Source of the DNA: a virus
DNA length: 23,247 nucleotides
IMG/VR virus record: IMGVR_UViG_3300046689_000943
Span: 1 to 23,247 of that record
Direction: 5' to 3' (one strand)
Position numbers and translations under genes: made by a program. Position 1 is the first letter of the stretch, and each line of letters begins with the position of its first letter. The notes under the pieces were generated by a model. That model was not told where the DNA came from. It searched no databases and was given only the letters and a program-made list of their open reading frames with translations. Shown here in pieces: positions 3,042 through 12,899 of the stretch.

Positions 3042-3614
3042 TTAGAAAATGCCTCCAGCCACGAGCATCGTTGAATAAGGCCCCGTCATACCCGTCGGCC
3101 CAGTCGCCCCAACCCCACCAACGCCGCCCGCCGCTCCGGTCATGCCGGTAGGACCTGTCGCCCCCTGGGCGCCCGCTCCGCCGGCTGACCCTGCCGCGCC
3201 TGTCGATCCGGTCGGCCCCGTGCTGCCTGCCGCCCCTGCACCGCCGACACTACCTGCGGCGCCGGTCGAACCTGTCGCCCCCGTGCTACCCGTCGGCCCG
3301 AGCGATCCGGCGCCACCCGCACCAGTCGATCCGGTCGGCCCGGTAAATGCACCTGCTCCCGTCGGACCCGTACTACCCGCCCCCGGTGCGCCCGTCGGCC
3401 CAGTAACCCCTGCCGACCCAGTCGCCCCGGCACCCGGCGGGCCCGTGGCACCCGTCACACCCGTCACACCCGACACACCGGTCGGCCCTACCGGCCCCGC
3501 CGGACCCGTCGTGACGCCGACCACCCACACCCCTTGCGCCGTCCAGGTGTACGTAATTCCACCGTACGTGTAGACCTGGCCGACGGACGGAGAGCTGGGA
3601 AAATCGATCGCCAT
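3042..3614 (-). CDS. Collagen-like protein with N-terminal tail-associated module
   Basis: The protein has 190 residues. The ATG at 3614 is preferred because it overlaps the upstream stop as TGATG and begins [13 protein letters not shown]; an upstream in-frame ATG at 3626 would add four residues. The first 35 residues (FPSSPSVGQ, then [12 protein letters not shown]) form a small module common at the N-termini of phage collagen-like fibres, where it is thought to attach the fibre. Residues of about 40-175 are Gly-X-Y repeats with GPTG and GSTG units. The protein ends in MLVAGGIF, similar to the LLLAGGWVV end of its upstream neighbour, which suggests a shared terminal element. Confidence 0.83.
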
Positions 3615-4423
3615 CAGACCACCCATCCCCCGGCAAGAAGCAGCGTCGTAGTCCCGCCGCTACCGCCACCGCCAGGACCGGTCGGCCCCGCCAGCGGCGG
3701 CGCCACCTGCACCCACTGGGTGGAATTACCGTCGTCGATCCAGATCGACAGAATGCCGGTCGTCAAATCGTACCAGAGATAACCCGGCGTCGGTGACGCC
3801 GGCGGCGTGCTCGAACCCGTGTAGCCACCACCGCTCCCGCCAGTCCCGCCGCCACTGCCCGCGGCTCCCGTCGGCCCGGTGGCGCCGGTGAAAGCCGCCG
3901 CGCCGGCTGGACCGGCAGGGCCTACGACCCCCTGCGGCCCCGCTGCTCCTGGAAGACCCGTCGGACCGGCAGGCCCGGCAAGCCCCGACGGTCCGGTCGC
4001 ACCCGTATTGACGGCAGATCCGGGTGTACCGGTTGGCCCAGTTTGACCAACACGACCGGTCGGACCCGTTGTTCCGGTGGCACCGGTCGACGAAGCAGCT
4101 CCGGCGGGGCCGGTCGGCCCCGACAAGCCTGGATCGCCGGTCGGCCCGGTCGCCCCTACCCCGGTCGGGCCAAGACCCCCAACCCCAGGAGGGCCAGTCG
4201 ATCCAATCGACCCGGTCGGGCCTGTCGATGCCGCGCCTACCGGCCCAGTGAACCCCGTCGGTCCGGTGAATGCTCCTGCACCCGTCGCCCCAGTGCTCGC
4301 CGCACCCGTCGGTCCCGTCGGTCCGGTGGTTCCTGTCGGCCCGCCGGACGGCCCGGTATGACCGCCCACAACAACAACCGGTCGGGTAGCGATAGGCGCG
4401 GGCTCATTCGTGCGAAGCGGCAT
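3614..4423 (-). CDS. Collagen-like fibre protein with C-terminal module
   Basis: This 269-residue protein has a short head containing [10 protein letters not shown], close to those of the other two paralogs, then a Gly-X-Y array to about residue 190 and a Gly/Ser linker. A compact module follows with [13 protein letters not shown] and [16 protein letters not shown]. This PP-x-P-x-G-x-LW-x-D ... DG-x-S-x-QWV pattern recurs in phage tail and fibre proteins. The tail ends LLLAGGWVV. The stop overlaps the next start, and the start lies 9 bp below the upstream stop with a GAAGG-type ribosome site. A tail-fibre role is inferred. Confidence 0.84.
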
Positions 4424-6929: not shown

Positions 6930-7541
6930 TTACCCGCCTGAGATGACCTGGGCTTGGCAAATCGCAGTGTTATCAAGGACTTGGTAGCCGTACACCTGTA
7001 GGCCTCTCAAAATTTGCCCGAAGGTCAGCTCACTCCTCAACGTTTCGATTTTACTCACCTGCGACGCGAACGTCAGGGCATGGGCATGCCCTGCGAAGAT
7101 CGGGTATTCGCCAGCCGCAAAATGCGTCGCGTCCTGAACCGACGTCGGCAACAAGTTAGAGATGTATATTGTGAACCTATCAACCATTCCGAGCCGGCCG
7201 TTGCGCAGCATCGACACCGGATCGCCCGACAGATAGGCTTGCCGGAGCTCGCTCTGCTTGATCTGCCGCCCGGCCCAGGACGGCATCACCACCCACCGGC
7301 CGATCTCCGGGATGTTGAACTCGTCGAGGCACTGCCCCATCCGCAGCAGACAATCCAGGATCGTTATCTGCCCGGTCGTAGGCGTCGCCCCCACCAGGGT
7401 GAGCGGCGTGCCCTTGATGCCGAGGTTCAGGTTCCCGGAAACGTTGCCCGCCGTCGCGCCCATGTTGAGCGCGTTGGCCTTGGCAACAATCCCGCCGAGC
7501 ACGTCTTTGTCGACCGTGATCTTTAACTGCTGGGCTGCATC
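6930..7541 (-). CDS. Major capsid protein, exon 3 (C-terminal 203 residues)
   Basis: This is the C-terminal part of the major capsid (coat) protein. It begins at the 3' splice site with DAAQQLKITVDKDVLGG, includes LTLVGATPTTGQITILDCLLRMGQCLDEFNIPE (about residues 35-68 of the exon), a WVVMPSWAGRQIKQSEL stretch and FTIYISNLLP, and ends GYQVLDNTAICQAQVISGG before TAA. The pattern PE-x-GRWVV-x-P followed by an SDL-like region and an RFTIY-x-SN loop is characteristic of coat proteins of the HK97-related fold in podovirus-like phages. No acceptable start codon precedes the first residues, which fits an exon rather than a gene. Joined to exons 1 and 2 it gives a 315-residue protein, a normal coat size. 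Confidence 0.85.
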   Translation of the reverse strand, partial: DAAQQLKITVDKDVLGGIVAKANALNMGATAGNVSGNLNLGIKGTPLTLVGATPTTGQITILDCLLRMGQCLDEFNIPEIGRWVVMPSWAGRQIKQSELRQAYLSGDPVSMLRNGRLGMVDRFTIYISNLLPTSVQDATHFAAGEYPIFAGHAHALTFASQVSKIETLRSELTFGQILRGLQVYGYQVLDNTAICQAQVISGG

Positions 7542-7792
7542 CCTTGATCTTCGTAACGAGACGCAACTCTCGTCACCGCCGTTTTGGCTGCTGCATATTC
7601 CTATGCAGAGGAGACTATATCATCACCCCTTTCGGGGGCCGGGCGCTTCGGGCCGCTTGGCCCTACGAGCTTTCGCTCTAGTCGTTGCACCTTCCGCTTT
7701 CGCGGCTTGGCTCAGGATTGGCCGTTCTGGCGTTCCCCTGAATTCACCCGGATTTGTTCAATGCAGATTGCTCTGCAAGGGGACTATAATTA
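7542..7792 (-). ncRNA. Group I self-splicing intron in the capsid gene
   Basis: This is a 251-nt ORF-less intron. P1 forms from exon GGAU and the intron's first 12 nt (loop AUUA, guide GUCC), placing a U·G wobble at the 5' splice site. P2 is TGCAGA/TCTGCA. A Q-type element AATCCTGAGCCAAGC pairs back to CAGG as P4. P6 is CCGC-GAAA-GCGG, and P8 begins with GAGC-GAAA-GCTC. P7 pairs GACTA with TAGTC of the S element GATATAGTC. P9 is CTGCATA/TATGCAG, followed by a 9-bp stem. The last intron base is G. Removing it joins GGTCGGAT to GATGCAGCC in frame. The intron's first codon is a stop (TAA), so splicing is required for a full coat protein. Confidence 0.9.
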
Positions 7793-8083
7793 ATCCGACC
7801 AAATGCTCAGCAGATTGAGATCCGACTGGATCTCCATCACGTCGTCGAGGATCAGGCTGAAGTAGTAGCCGTTTCCGATATACAGTTCGACCGAGCCGCC
7901 GGACGGGCGATCAAGCCCAAGCAAACCGTCGGCAAGGTAGGGTCGAATCGTGATCGTGGGTTTTGTCCGGATTTTCACCCGGTCGCCCATATTCTGTATC
8001 TCGCCCTCGTAATCGGTATTCGATATCGCGGACAAGCAGGTACTCGCATAAAATTTTTCGACCAACTTTGCCGACCAGATTTC
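7793..8083 (-). CDS. Major capsid protein, exon 2 (97 codons)
   Basis: This is the N-terminal arm and first domain of the coat protein: EIWSAKLVEKFYAST, ISNTDYEGEIQNMGDRVKIR, TITIRPYLADGLLGLDRPSG, GNGYYFSLILDDVMEIQSDLNLLSIWSD. The EIWS-x-KL-x-x-KFY-x-ST and NTDYEGEI-x-x-xGD-x-V-x-IR motifs are hallmarks of this coat family. The frame has a stop just upstream (TGA, 9 codons before GAA) and no ATG, so translation cannot begin here normally. The 5' boundary at 8083 was chosen because joining exon 1 (ending FIP) gives FIPEIWSAKL, the family consensus. The exact junction could differ by a few bases. Confidence 0.82.
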
Positions 8084-8697
8084 CGTTCTGTTACTACGCG
8101 ACGGTCAATCGCGTTTAACTTACAGCCGCCCTAGACCGCAAGCGGGATGGCCATTTCTCCCATCCTCCCCATGTCGCCATGGGGGTCGGACTGTCGCATC
8201 AACGAAGCAATGCGCTCCGCCGCCCTCTCGCTCAGTCTCTGCGGGTCCACCTTCATAGCGCGCAACTCTTCAACAAAAGCCGCGCGCGCCTGTTCCATCC
8301 CCGCGAAGCAAGCATTCTGACCAAAACGAGTGTCTTTGGTTTGCCGGCCAGACGCATTATCCAGCCACCAGAGAACAAGTTTGGCCTGCTCCGCTTTCAG
8401 GATCAGGTGGGGAAGGATCAAGTTCAGAATGCGACGCATATCGTCGCCATTCAGCCACTCAAGCGACCAGCTGTTTTGCTGGTTCGCCTTCCCGGCCTTA
8501 CGGCCGACAAGGTGGCCTCCAAACCTGGCACGCAGCAGCTCCATCATCGAACGAGCGCTATCAGCCATGCACATGCGAACGCGAGGTCGCACATACAGTC
8601 TGTTTCTGCCCGTCTTCGGATACATCCGCTGCACGTCGATACACCCTTCACCGTCGAAGAGCCCAGCCAGGTATTCCGGAGTCACTGTCTGCTCCTA
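8084..8697 (-). mobile_element. LAGLIDADG-bearing insertion splitting the capsid gene
   Basis: This is a 614-nt element between coat codons 15 and 16. The boundaries are inferred from the coat consensus. It starts with an amber codon in frame with exon 1, then 9 further nt, then the endonuclease GTG start. After the endonuclease stop only 47 nt remain before exon 2, including a CGCGA/TCGCG stem. Under 60 nt lies outside the ORF, which is too little for a normal group I core. No Q, R or S elements were recognised, unlike the intron at 7542-7792. Either ribozyme sequence overlaps the ORF, or removal occurs by another route, or the coat gene is broken in this genome. Confidence 0.6.
8131..8685 (-). 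CDS. LAGLIDADG homing endonuclease
   Basis: This 184-residue protein starts at GTG 8685, with AGGAG about 7 bases upstream. Residues 5-14 (YLAGLFDGEG) are the LAGLIDADG helix with its catalytic acidic residue. The following DVQR strand, a LRARFGGHLVGRK segment, WSLEWLNGDDMRRILN and LPHLILKAEQAKLVLWW match the single-motif family, which acts as a dimer cutting a long specific DNA site. The site is presumably the uninterrupted coat gene. It is in frame with exon 1 apart from one amber codon, but not with exon 2. The last 60 residues are polar and probably not part of the core. Confidence 0.9.
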   Translation of the reverse strand: MTPEYLAGLFDGEGCIDVQRMYPKTGRNRLYVRPRVRMCMADSARSMMELLRARFGGHLVGRKAGKANQQNSWSLEWLNGDDMRRILNLILPHLILKAEQAKLVLWWLDNASGRQTKDTRFGQNACFAGMEQARAAFVEELRAMKVDPQRLSERAAERIASLMRQSDPHGDMGRMGEMAIPLAV

Positions 8698-8742
8698 TGG
8701 AATAAACCCATGCTGGATAGTGGTTCCCTCGGGTGACGTCAA
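8698..8742 (-). CDS. Major capsid protein, exon 1 (first 15 codons)
   Basis: Fifteen codons read MTSPEGTTIQHGFIP if the TTG at 8742 is the start, followed at once by an amber codon at 8697. The FIP ending continues as EIWSAKL in exon 2, matching the conserved coat N-terminus. TTG is an unusual start for the most abundant virion protein. A GGGA element lies 8 bases upstream. An ATG at 8776 lies in a different frame and stops after five codons. Assignment is by consensus at the junction, so the start is uncertain. Confidence 0.6.
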
Positions 8743-8784
8743 TGACGCGTTCCCGGAATCAGAGAGGGTTTAACATCCCCAAAA

Positions 8785-9036
8785 TTAGTAACGGCTAGGG
8801 ATGAACCCGGTCGATTGCAGCGTGTTGGCGGTAGAGCCGACGGGGGTTAGGGGAGGCGTCGTGCCTGATGTTGCGACGCCAAAGCCCGCAGTGGGGATAG
8901 CCATGAAGTCCCTCATTGCCTGGGGGACTGTCAGCACTCTGGCTTGAGCAGCCCCCGGTTTATCGGATGCGCCCTTCGCGGCCTGCAGCAATGATGTCGG
9001 CGTCCTGCCGAGCCCACTCGGCTTCGCGTCCGACAT
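8785..9036 (-). CDS. Small phage protein overlapping the scaffold gene end
   Basis: This 83-residue protein starts MSDAKPSGLGRTPTSLL and ends STGFIPSRY. It is rich in Pro, Thr, Ala and Gly, with no motif recognised. The ATG at 9036 has an AAAGGG ribosome-site-like sequence and lies inside the scaffold gene, overlapping it by 77 bp in another frame. Internal Met codons at 8916 and 8904 would avoid the overlap but lack ribosome sites. It lies between scaffold and coat, where small head proteins often occur. Function unknown. Confidence 0.55.
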   Translation of the reverse strand: MSDAKPSGLGRTPTSLLQAAKGASDKPGAAQARVLTVPQAMRDFMAIPTAGFGVATSGTTPPLTPVGSTANTLQSTGFIPSRY

Positions 9037-11147: not shown

Positions 11148-11155
11148 AGTGCGCA

Positions 11156-11185
11156 GCAGGATCAGTGCGCTAACACCGATCCTGC
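11156..11185. other. Inverted repeat in the HNH gene leader
   Basis: GCAGGATC at 11156-11163 and GATCCTGC at 11178-11185 form a perfect 8-bp stem with a 14-nt loop, ending 30 bp upstream of the HNH ATG. In the HNH mRNA it could fold in the leader and affect translation. There is no T-tract. Confidence 0.45.
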
Positions 11186-11214
11186 CACTTGCCTCAAACC
11201 GTAGGAGCGGTCTA

Positions 11215-11775
11215 ATGGCCAAGCTAAAAGATATCACAGGTCAAAAATTTGGCTACCTGACAGCAATCCAGCCAACCAATAGACGAGCTGGACGCAACGT
11301 AATCTGGCTTTGCCAATGCGATTGCGGCAACACTCATTCCATCCCCGCAGGCGACCTTCAACGACCTAGAGATAATTCCTGCGGCTGTAGACGCGGCACA
11401 TTAGAACATGGCTATGCCAAAAGAGGGAAAAAACATCCGCTTTACAAAACCTGGATAGGCATACGCGATCGATGCAACAATCCAAGCAATAAACGCTACC
11501 ACGACTATGGTGGCCGAGGCATCAAACTTCGCGACCCATGGAATGAGCCTACCGTTTTCATAAACGGCATCCTTACCAGTATTGGAGATCGTCCACCCGG
11601 CATGTCTCTCGATCGCATCAACAACGACGGTGACTATGAACCTGGCAATGTTAAATGGTCTACTCATAGTGAACAAATGAAAAACAGGCGCCCGCGTAAA
11701 GAATGGCGTCATACGCTTGCACAATTCACCACCGCAGAACTAGAAGCCGAAATAGCTCGAAGGCAACTTGCTTAG
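11215..11775 (+). CDS. HNH-type endonuclease on the opposite strand
   Basis: This 186-residue protein starts at ATG 11215 with TAGGAG upstream; an extra 22 upstream codons are open but lack a ribosome site. It has an N-terminal GYLTAI strand, WLCQCDCG (31-38) with SCGC (55-58) forming a Cys-rich metal-binding knuckle, YKTWIGIRDRCNNP (77-90), YGGRGI (98-103) and the active-site region LDRINNDGDYEPGNVKW (132-148) before an HSEQMKNRR ending. This order is typical of phage His-Me-finger homing endonucleases. It is the only plus-strand gene inside the minus-strand block and is AT-richer, so it looks inserted. Confidence 0.85.
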   Translation: MAKLKDITGQKFGYLTAIQPTNRRAGRNVIWLCQCDCGNTHSIPAGDLQRPRDNSCGCRRGTLEHGYAKRGKKHPLYKTWIGIRDRCNNPSNKRYHDYGGRGIKLRDPWNEPTVFINGILTSIGDRPPGMSLDRINNDGDYEPGNVKWSTHSEQMKNRRPRKEWRHTLAQFTTAELEAEIARRQLA

Positions 11776-11819: not shown

Positions 11820-12899
11820 TCAGCGCACCCGGCGCGCGCTGATGTAACCCGTCACCGTCACGGTGCCGCCCCCGAAGGTCGCCAGCGCCACCAGATAGAC
11901 CGACTTCGACGTACTGGTGCTGACCCGGATCAGGCTGGTCGGCGTGGTCTGGGTCTTGCCCGACGGCATGCTGGACGCCCAGATCTGCTGCATGATGCCC
12001 TTGCCGGTCGCCACGTCGTTATCGGACGGCAGCGTCGCGGCAGTCTGGCTAAGCGCCGCAATCACACTGTTTGGGCCGGTGCTGACCGGCGTGAAAATCA
12101 CCACCCCGCCGACCGTCCAATCACCGGGGGTCAAGGTGATGGTCGTGACGTTCATGGCCACGTTCGTGGTCAACCCGACGCCTGCGAAATTACTGCCCGA
12201 TATGACCTCACCGATCGTCCCTGGCGCCGCATCGCTTCCGTCGGTGACGCCCTTGAGGTTGAACGTCCCGGTCGGTCCGACGACACCTGCCGGACCGGTC
12301 GGGCCGGCTATACCCTGCGGACCGAGCGTGCCTTGCGCACCTTGTGGACCCACTGATCCCGACGCCCCAGTGGCTCCGGTAGCGCCCTGAGTGCCGATCG
12401 CCCCCGACATGCCGGTCGGTCCCATCGGGCCTGCTGCCCCTGCGGGTCCTGCCGGTCCCTGCGGGCCTGCCGCCCCTGCCGGTCCTACCGCACCGGTCGG
12501 CCCCACCGTGCCAGCCCCACCACCACCTGTCGCTGCATCCGGCATCTCCAGCACAACAGAAAAAGTCCGGTCCGCGCTCTGCTTTGTCTGCGCCGTGAAC
12601 GTGCCGGAGCGAAACCGCAGCCAGGAGATGCCGTAGCCGGTATTGGGCGGCATGGTGACGGCTGCCCCCGGCGTCACGACCGGAATCGTCGCCGGATAAG
12701 TCGTGAAGTCCCCGATCGGGGCCGCAAGATGCAAGTTGTTGTAGACCACGCCGTCTACGGATGTTTGAAATGTCAGCGGCGCCGCGTCCCAATCCGGCGG
12801 CATGATGATGCGCAGGATCCTGGTGCTGCCCGAGCAGTCGACCCCGCCCGACATTGAGTGCCCGGCAGGGATCGTCAGCGACAGGGTCTGCAACGACAC
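11820..12899 (-). CDS. Collagen-like tail fibre protein with head and tip domains
   Basis: The 359-residue protein starts at GTG 12899 with AGGAGG upstream. Residues 1-120 are a beta-rich head (LTIPAGHSMSGGVDCSG, MPPDWDAAPLTFQTSVDG) of the type found in phage fibre proteins. About 130-215 are Gly-X-Y repeats (GPTG, GPAG, GPQG). The last 140 residues form a tip domain (DWTVGGVVIFTP ... TVTVTGYISARRVR). The DW-x-V-x-G ... GYISARR pattern recurs at fibre C-termini. It lies next to the lysis genes, away from the other collagen-like cluster, and its head is unrelated to theirs. Confidence 0.82.
   Translation of the reverse strand: MSLQTLSLTIPAGHSMSGGVDCSGSTRILRIIMPPDWDAAPLTFQTSVDGVVYNNLHLAAPIGDFTTYPATIPVVTPGAAVTMPPNTGYGISWLRFRSGTFTAQTKQSADRTFSVVLEMPDAATGGGGAGTVGPTGAVGPAGAAGPQGPAGPAGAAGPMGPTGMSGAIGTQGATGATGASGSVGPQGAQGTLGPQGIAGPTGPAGVVGPTGTFNLKGVTDGSDAAPGTIGEVISGSNFAGVGLTTNVAMNVTTITLTPGDWTVGGVVIFTPVSTGPNSVIAALSQTAATLPSDNDVATGKGIMQQIWASSMPSGKTQTTPTSLIRVSTSTSKSVYLVALATFGGGTVTVTGYISARRVR

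Follow-up and report, generated by a model that had tools for sequence, protein, structure and literature searches.

The insert in the coat gene of the window (the whole stretch of viral DNA analyzed, 23,247 nt) is almost certainly a mobile group I intron, whose LAGLIDADG ORF occupies the P6 loop and extends over the P6'-P9.1 half of the core. This reading corrects a misleading gene model and illustrates how a group I intron can seem ribozyme-free, namely when part of the core doubles as endonuclease ORF and goes undetected by the standard model.

Boundaries of the insert in the coat gene

The host gene of the insert is of the phrog_267 type (major head protein) and the ORF inside it was assigned to PF00961 (24.9 bits, cut-off 23.1; motif LAGLFDGEG), so that the preliminary description was correct in having a LAGLIDADG ORF split the capsid gene. 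It had also placed the 3' boundary at 8084 correctly (...GAACG/GAAATCTGG, where the slash marks the junction and the exon reads EIW). Its upstream exon was misplaced: MTSPEGTTIQHGFIP had been joined to EIWSAKLVEKFY across 614 nt, but MTSPEGTTIQHGFIP is absent from the coat proteins of relatives, and the wrong junction looked right because of the FIP within it, a coincidence. Comparison with uninterrupted coat genes, as that description had proposed, told against its exon 1: dozens of intronless relatives read ...LTPVGSTANTLQSTGFIP/EIWSA, and the window carries a peptide identical to the pre-junction peptide of these relatives, which ends at 8797. The true intervening sequence is thus 713 nt long (8796-8084), and the coat protein starts elsewhere, in the true exon 1 (start ATG 8904, picked by similarity to MAIPTAGFG... 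of relatives), and never includes MTSPEGTTIQHGFIP.

Removal of intron 1 yields GFIP/EIWSA, an exact match to dozens of intronless relatives. A second intron interrupts the same gene at WSD/DAAQQ, a junction that was the same in 83 of the 84 relatives' rows, and the coat protein after removal of both introns is 336 aa long. By coat homology search, the closest named phages were Rhizobium phages (e.g., RHph_TM3_14A, 60.8%). Coordinates of all features are listed in Table 1.

Upon transcription, the RNA of intron 1 would fold (P1-P9) and excise itself, which would join ...GFIP to EIWSA... and restore the coat reading frame, with STGFIPEIWSAK as a predicted peptide of the coat protein. The LAGLIDADG enzyme would cut intronless coat genes at FIP/EIW, where the intron would then be copied in. 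Consistent with homing by the predicted endonuclease, many phages, similar to differing degrees, have the element at the same coat site, and dozens of others have an empty site with the exact fused peptide.

Further group I introns were seen at other positions in the coat-gene regions of relatives (L017, L028, L071, L082, L092 and L134), which makes the coat gene look like a hot spot for introns.

Table 1. Features of the coat gene and intron 1 in the window
Feature	Position	Strand	Basis or remark
Coat exon 1	8797..8904	-	36 codons, ends …STANTLQSTGFIP, last codon CCT; matches intronless relatives
Group I intron 1	8084..8796, 713 nt	-	Boundary comparison, covariation, U.G at 5' splice site, terminal G at 8084
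P10 strand and internal guide sequence GGGGATG	8784-8781 and 8780-8774	-	Guide pairs with exon CATCCCT (P1)
P3 5' strand CCCTCTC	8762..8768	-	Covariation alignment
P4	8755-8752 / 8733-8730	-	Covariation alignment
P5	8747-8744 / 8740-8737	-	Covariation alignment
Previously proposed exon 1, MTSPEGTTIQHGFIP	8698..8742	-	Chance frame from TTG across the intron P5-P4-P6 region and spacer
P6 5' strand GGGAACCAC	8720..8728	-	CCAC/GTGG arm, compensatory changes in most introns
LAGLIDADG homing endonuclease ORF	8131..8685	-	184 aa, GTG start; in P6 loop, reads through 3' half of core
ORF/ribozyme overlap, 120 nt	8131..8250	-	Structure pairs and synonymous-codon conservation
P6'	8250-8243	-	Overlap element
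P7	8237-8233	-	Overlap element
P3'	8229-8223	-	Overlap element
P8	8220-8202	-	Overlap element
P7'	8193-8189	-	Overlap element
P9	8184-8167	-	Overlap element
P9.1	8165-8145	-	Overlap element
Non-coding 3' end	8084..8130	-	P9.3-like hairpin 8114-8110 / 8100-8096, terminal G 8084; covariation alignment
Coat exon 2	7793..8083	-	EIWSAKL...SIWSD
Group I intron 2, no ORF	7542..7792, 251 nt	-	Rfam RF00028, 81.9 bits at 7801-7591
Coat exon 3	6930..7541	-	DAAQQLKI... up to stop

Comparative structure of intron 1

Relatives were collected as LAGLIDADG copies in viral contigs and then via searches for the guide-sequence and P7 motifs. The structure was written by hand, and the alignment held 11 distinct introns with the ORF interior omitted. 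Over 59 pairs in these 11 introns, 96.0% of 605 cells were paired, a figure biased toward the window as the hand-drawn structure was counted on an alignment that includes it. Two-sided changes were present in 32 of the 59 pairs (18.8 under shuffling, sd 2.1) and the covariation score was 0.400 (0.130 in shuffles), while none of 500 shuffles reached the observed values on any of five measures. When partners were slid as a control, pairing was down to 38-48%.

The strongest case of covariation was P6, whose arms flank most of the ORF and were paired in every intron through the variants CCAC/GTGG, CCAT/ATGG, CCAG/CTGG, CCTG/CAGG, CGGC/GCCG and CTCG/CGAG. The other helices were as follows: i) P1 (CATCCCU/GGGGAUG) was 100% paired, and all 11 introns have U.G at the splice site; ii) P3 (CCCTCTC/GAGAGGG) carried double changes in two introns (L010 and L113), and P7 changed in a compensatory manner from GACTG/CAGTC to GACTA/TAGTC in another (L007), with the P3/P7 pseudoknot and its conserved P7 guanosine-site pair found in the aligned introns; iii) helices of the P4-P5-P6 domain, P8 and P9 were 94-100% paired (82% for P8), with two-sided changes in all; iv) P10 was paired in 42 of 42 cells and had one two-sided change, UUU/GAA to CUU/GAG (U-A to C-G) in two introns, yet controls slid by -1 to -3 were also 88-95% paired, so that P10 is consistent but statistically weak. 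All 11 introns end in G, and in the window every core pair was intact. Compared in this way, the structure of intron 1 points unambiguously to a group I fold.

The preliminary description had found no ribozyme core and suggested a structure search. Rfam indeed revealed none: scans in gathering and permissive mode detected no group I core at intron 1 and no match to any group II family, and RF00028 matched neither any LAGLIDADG-bearing copy nor the ORF-deleted copy (L136), and also missed those of L134, L126, L113, L123 and L120. However, the comparative fold contains a full group I core. RF00028 does detect intron 2 of the same coat gene, at 81.9 bits; recognition by this model is an aid to detection and no defining feature of group I introns. 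A 20-bit match to Bacilli-1 at 8183-8139, which sits on the P9/P9.1 hairpins, was rejected as chance.

An endonuclease ORF that runs into the ribozyme

The ribozyme had gone unseen because the endonuclease ORF contains half of the catalytic RNA: its last 40 codons double as P6', P7, P3', P8, P7', P9 and P9.1, and translation of the R/P3' element gives the peptide DPQRLSERA. Within intron 1, the ORF is preceded by 111 nt and followed by 47 nt, and 120 nt of its length also serve as ribozyme, in place of the under 60 non-coding nt counted previously. Core codons were nearly frozen at synonymous positions: where relatives have an amino acid in common, they used the same codon in 82% of comparisons in R/P3' and S, as compared with 44% in the part of the ORF that precedes the core; in P8, a helix that itself varies, the figure was 43%.

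Upstream of the ORF, a hairpin hiding the ribosome site (as in T4) was sought across relatives with inconsistent results, and only L136 was clearly better than shuffles. A copy resembling the homing site (TTTATNCC) was also sought upstream of the ORF, and reached p<0.05 against shuffles in only 2 of 17 loci. A recurrent TTTATNCCA / TTCATTCC-like motif precedes the endonuclease start in the window, L003, L005, L136, L149, L156 and L157, and resembles the coat exon, but at most loci it did not differ significantly from shuffles. In named phages no close copy of the endonuclease was found (all <60% identity), and the three matches in bacterial genomes, at only 28% identity, gave no host clue.

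Comparison with known systems

The layout in which an ORF overlaps the core is already known, and intron 1 adds a LAGLIDADG example in a coat gene. The T4 td intron is a close parallel: it too is of group I and interrupts a phage gene, and its ORF lies mainly in a loop and enters the core with its 3' end; the td endonuclease (I-TevI) is a GIY-YIG enzyme in a thymidylate synthase gene, whereas that of intron 1 is a LAGLIDADG enzyme in a coat gene. The overlap goes further than in td in two relatives (L113 and L123), where the last three bases of the intron form the ORF stop codon. According to the passage of PMC2988022 which cites Shub et al., the 3' end of the I-TevI ORF supplies key ribozyme nucleotides of the td intron; untimely translation harms its splicing (PMC2988022), and endonuclease ORFs that overlap the intron core have been described as a class (PMC3984707, Fig. 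2b). In mycobacteriophage LittleE (cluster J), splicing of a capsid intron was shown via RT-PCR and N-terminal sequencing of the coat protein (PMC3706429). As described, that intron resembles ours in being of group I type with a LAGLIDADG-like gene in the major capsid gene, but it measures about 819 bp and encodes its endonuclease on the opposite strand (PMC3706429).

Against the Rfam family RF00028 (Intron_gpI), the general fold is shared, and intron 2 is recognized as such, while intron 1 and its relatives are not, even with the ORF deleted. The ORF product weakly matched single-motif LAGLIDADG enzymes of the I-CvuI / I-CreI type (E 0.0066, residues 5-110); it differs from them in its low similarity and in its C-terminal 40 residues, which are ribozyme-encoded.

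Alternative explanations

Among the explanations offered by the preliminary description, an overlapping intron agrees with the ORF lying over the 3' half of the core, while a new compact element, a bypass and a disrupted gene found no support. A new compact element of 614 nt outside group I, or a translational bypass that links codon 15 to the exon downstream, would fit the failure of Rfam to detect a core, and HGFIP followed by EIWSAK is plausible by eye. But HGFIP is an intronic peptide that bears no relation to the N-terminus of the coat protein, the true exon 1 lies ~100 nt upstream and a full covarying group I fold is present; the comparison with intronless relatives refutes such a reading, whose probability we consider negligible. 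Equally far-fetched is a bulge-helix-bulge intron of archaeal type, a group II intron or an intein. Archaeal rRNA introns of similar size also bear LAGLIDADG ORFs; however, the fold here is that of group I, with the P3/P7 pseudoknot, the U.G splice site and the terminal G, Rfam offered no group II family, and an intein fails because the frame (CCT AGC CGT TAC TAA) meets a TAA a few codons into the intron, shortly after FIP.

Somewhat less remote, though still very improbable, is that the phage is defective and its coat gene is simply disrupted by a dead group I intron or a free-standing endonuclease. The whole analysis is DNA-based, and the source is a 23-kb virus record that may be incomplete, which leaves some room for that reading. 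Several lines of evidence argue against it: i) both junctions are clean and in frame; ii) every core pair of the window is intact; iii) the core is constrained at its synonymous sites; iv) the same insertion recurs across distant phages.

Intron-borne and free-standing endonucleases at the coat locus

At one locus the relatives range from an empty site through a full intron and an ORF-deleted intron to a free-standing endonuclease, a natural series in which to test how introns and homing endonucleases come together and separate. In L136 a natural deletion has removed almost the entire ORF (MNPEYLAGLL*) and left the core complete. L134 has a copy that lacks an ORF and lies at a different coat-gene site. 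In L126, elements P3-P7 are followed by a frame that by eye is GIY-YIG-like, not LAGLIDADG, and in L120 the first ATG of the endonuclease frame is already near P4. Elsewhere a free-standing endonuclease lies just upstream of an intact coat gene (L149 (=L009), L151-L153 and L156). A further free-standing copy upstream of the coat gene (L161) ends with its contig.

In the usual model of mobile-intron formation, free-standing endonucleases are the invading ancestors. At this locus, the tails of free-standing copies (KRDPSRDSE, KLDPLRAS and KKDTHRDS, from L149, L151 and L156) align with the ribozyme-encoded DPQRLSER, and nearly all distant outgroup proteins are without a ribozyme-like tail. The alignment suggests that these tails are decayed ribozyme-encoded peptide, as would follow from escape from introns. 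A tree of intron-borne and free-standing endonucleases did not resolve the direction of exchange. That the endonuclease has taken in a peptide translated from the ribozyme core, with the free-standing copies as intron escapees and not invading ancestors, is put forward tentatively, its chances being a little short of even.

Other genes in the window

Two genes of HNH/endonuclease VII type were seen at 6209-5472 (-) and 11149-11775 (+), the second antisense to its neighbors. Proteins with collagen-like Gly-X-Y repeats, recognized by eye, are encoded at 768-1244, 3042-4423 and 11820-12899 (-), and are probably tail or virion surface proteins.
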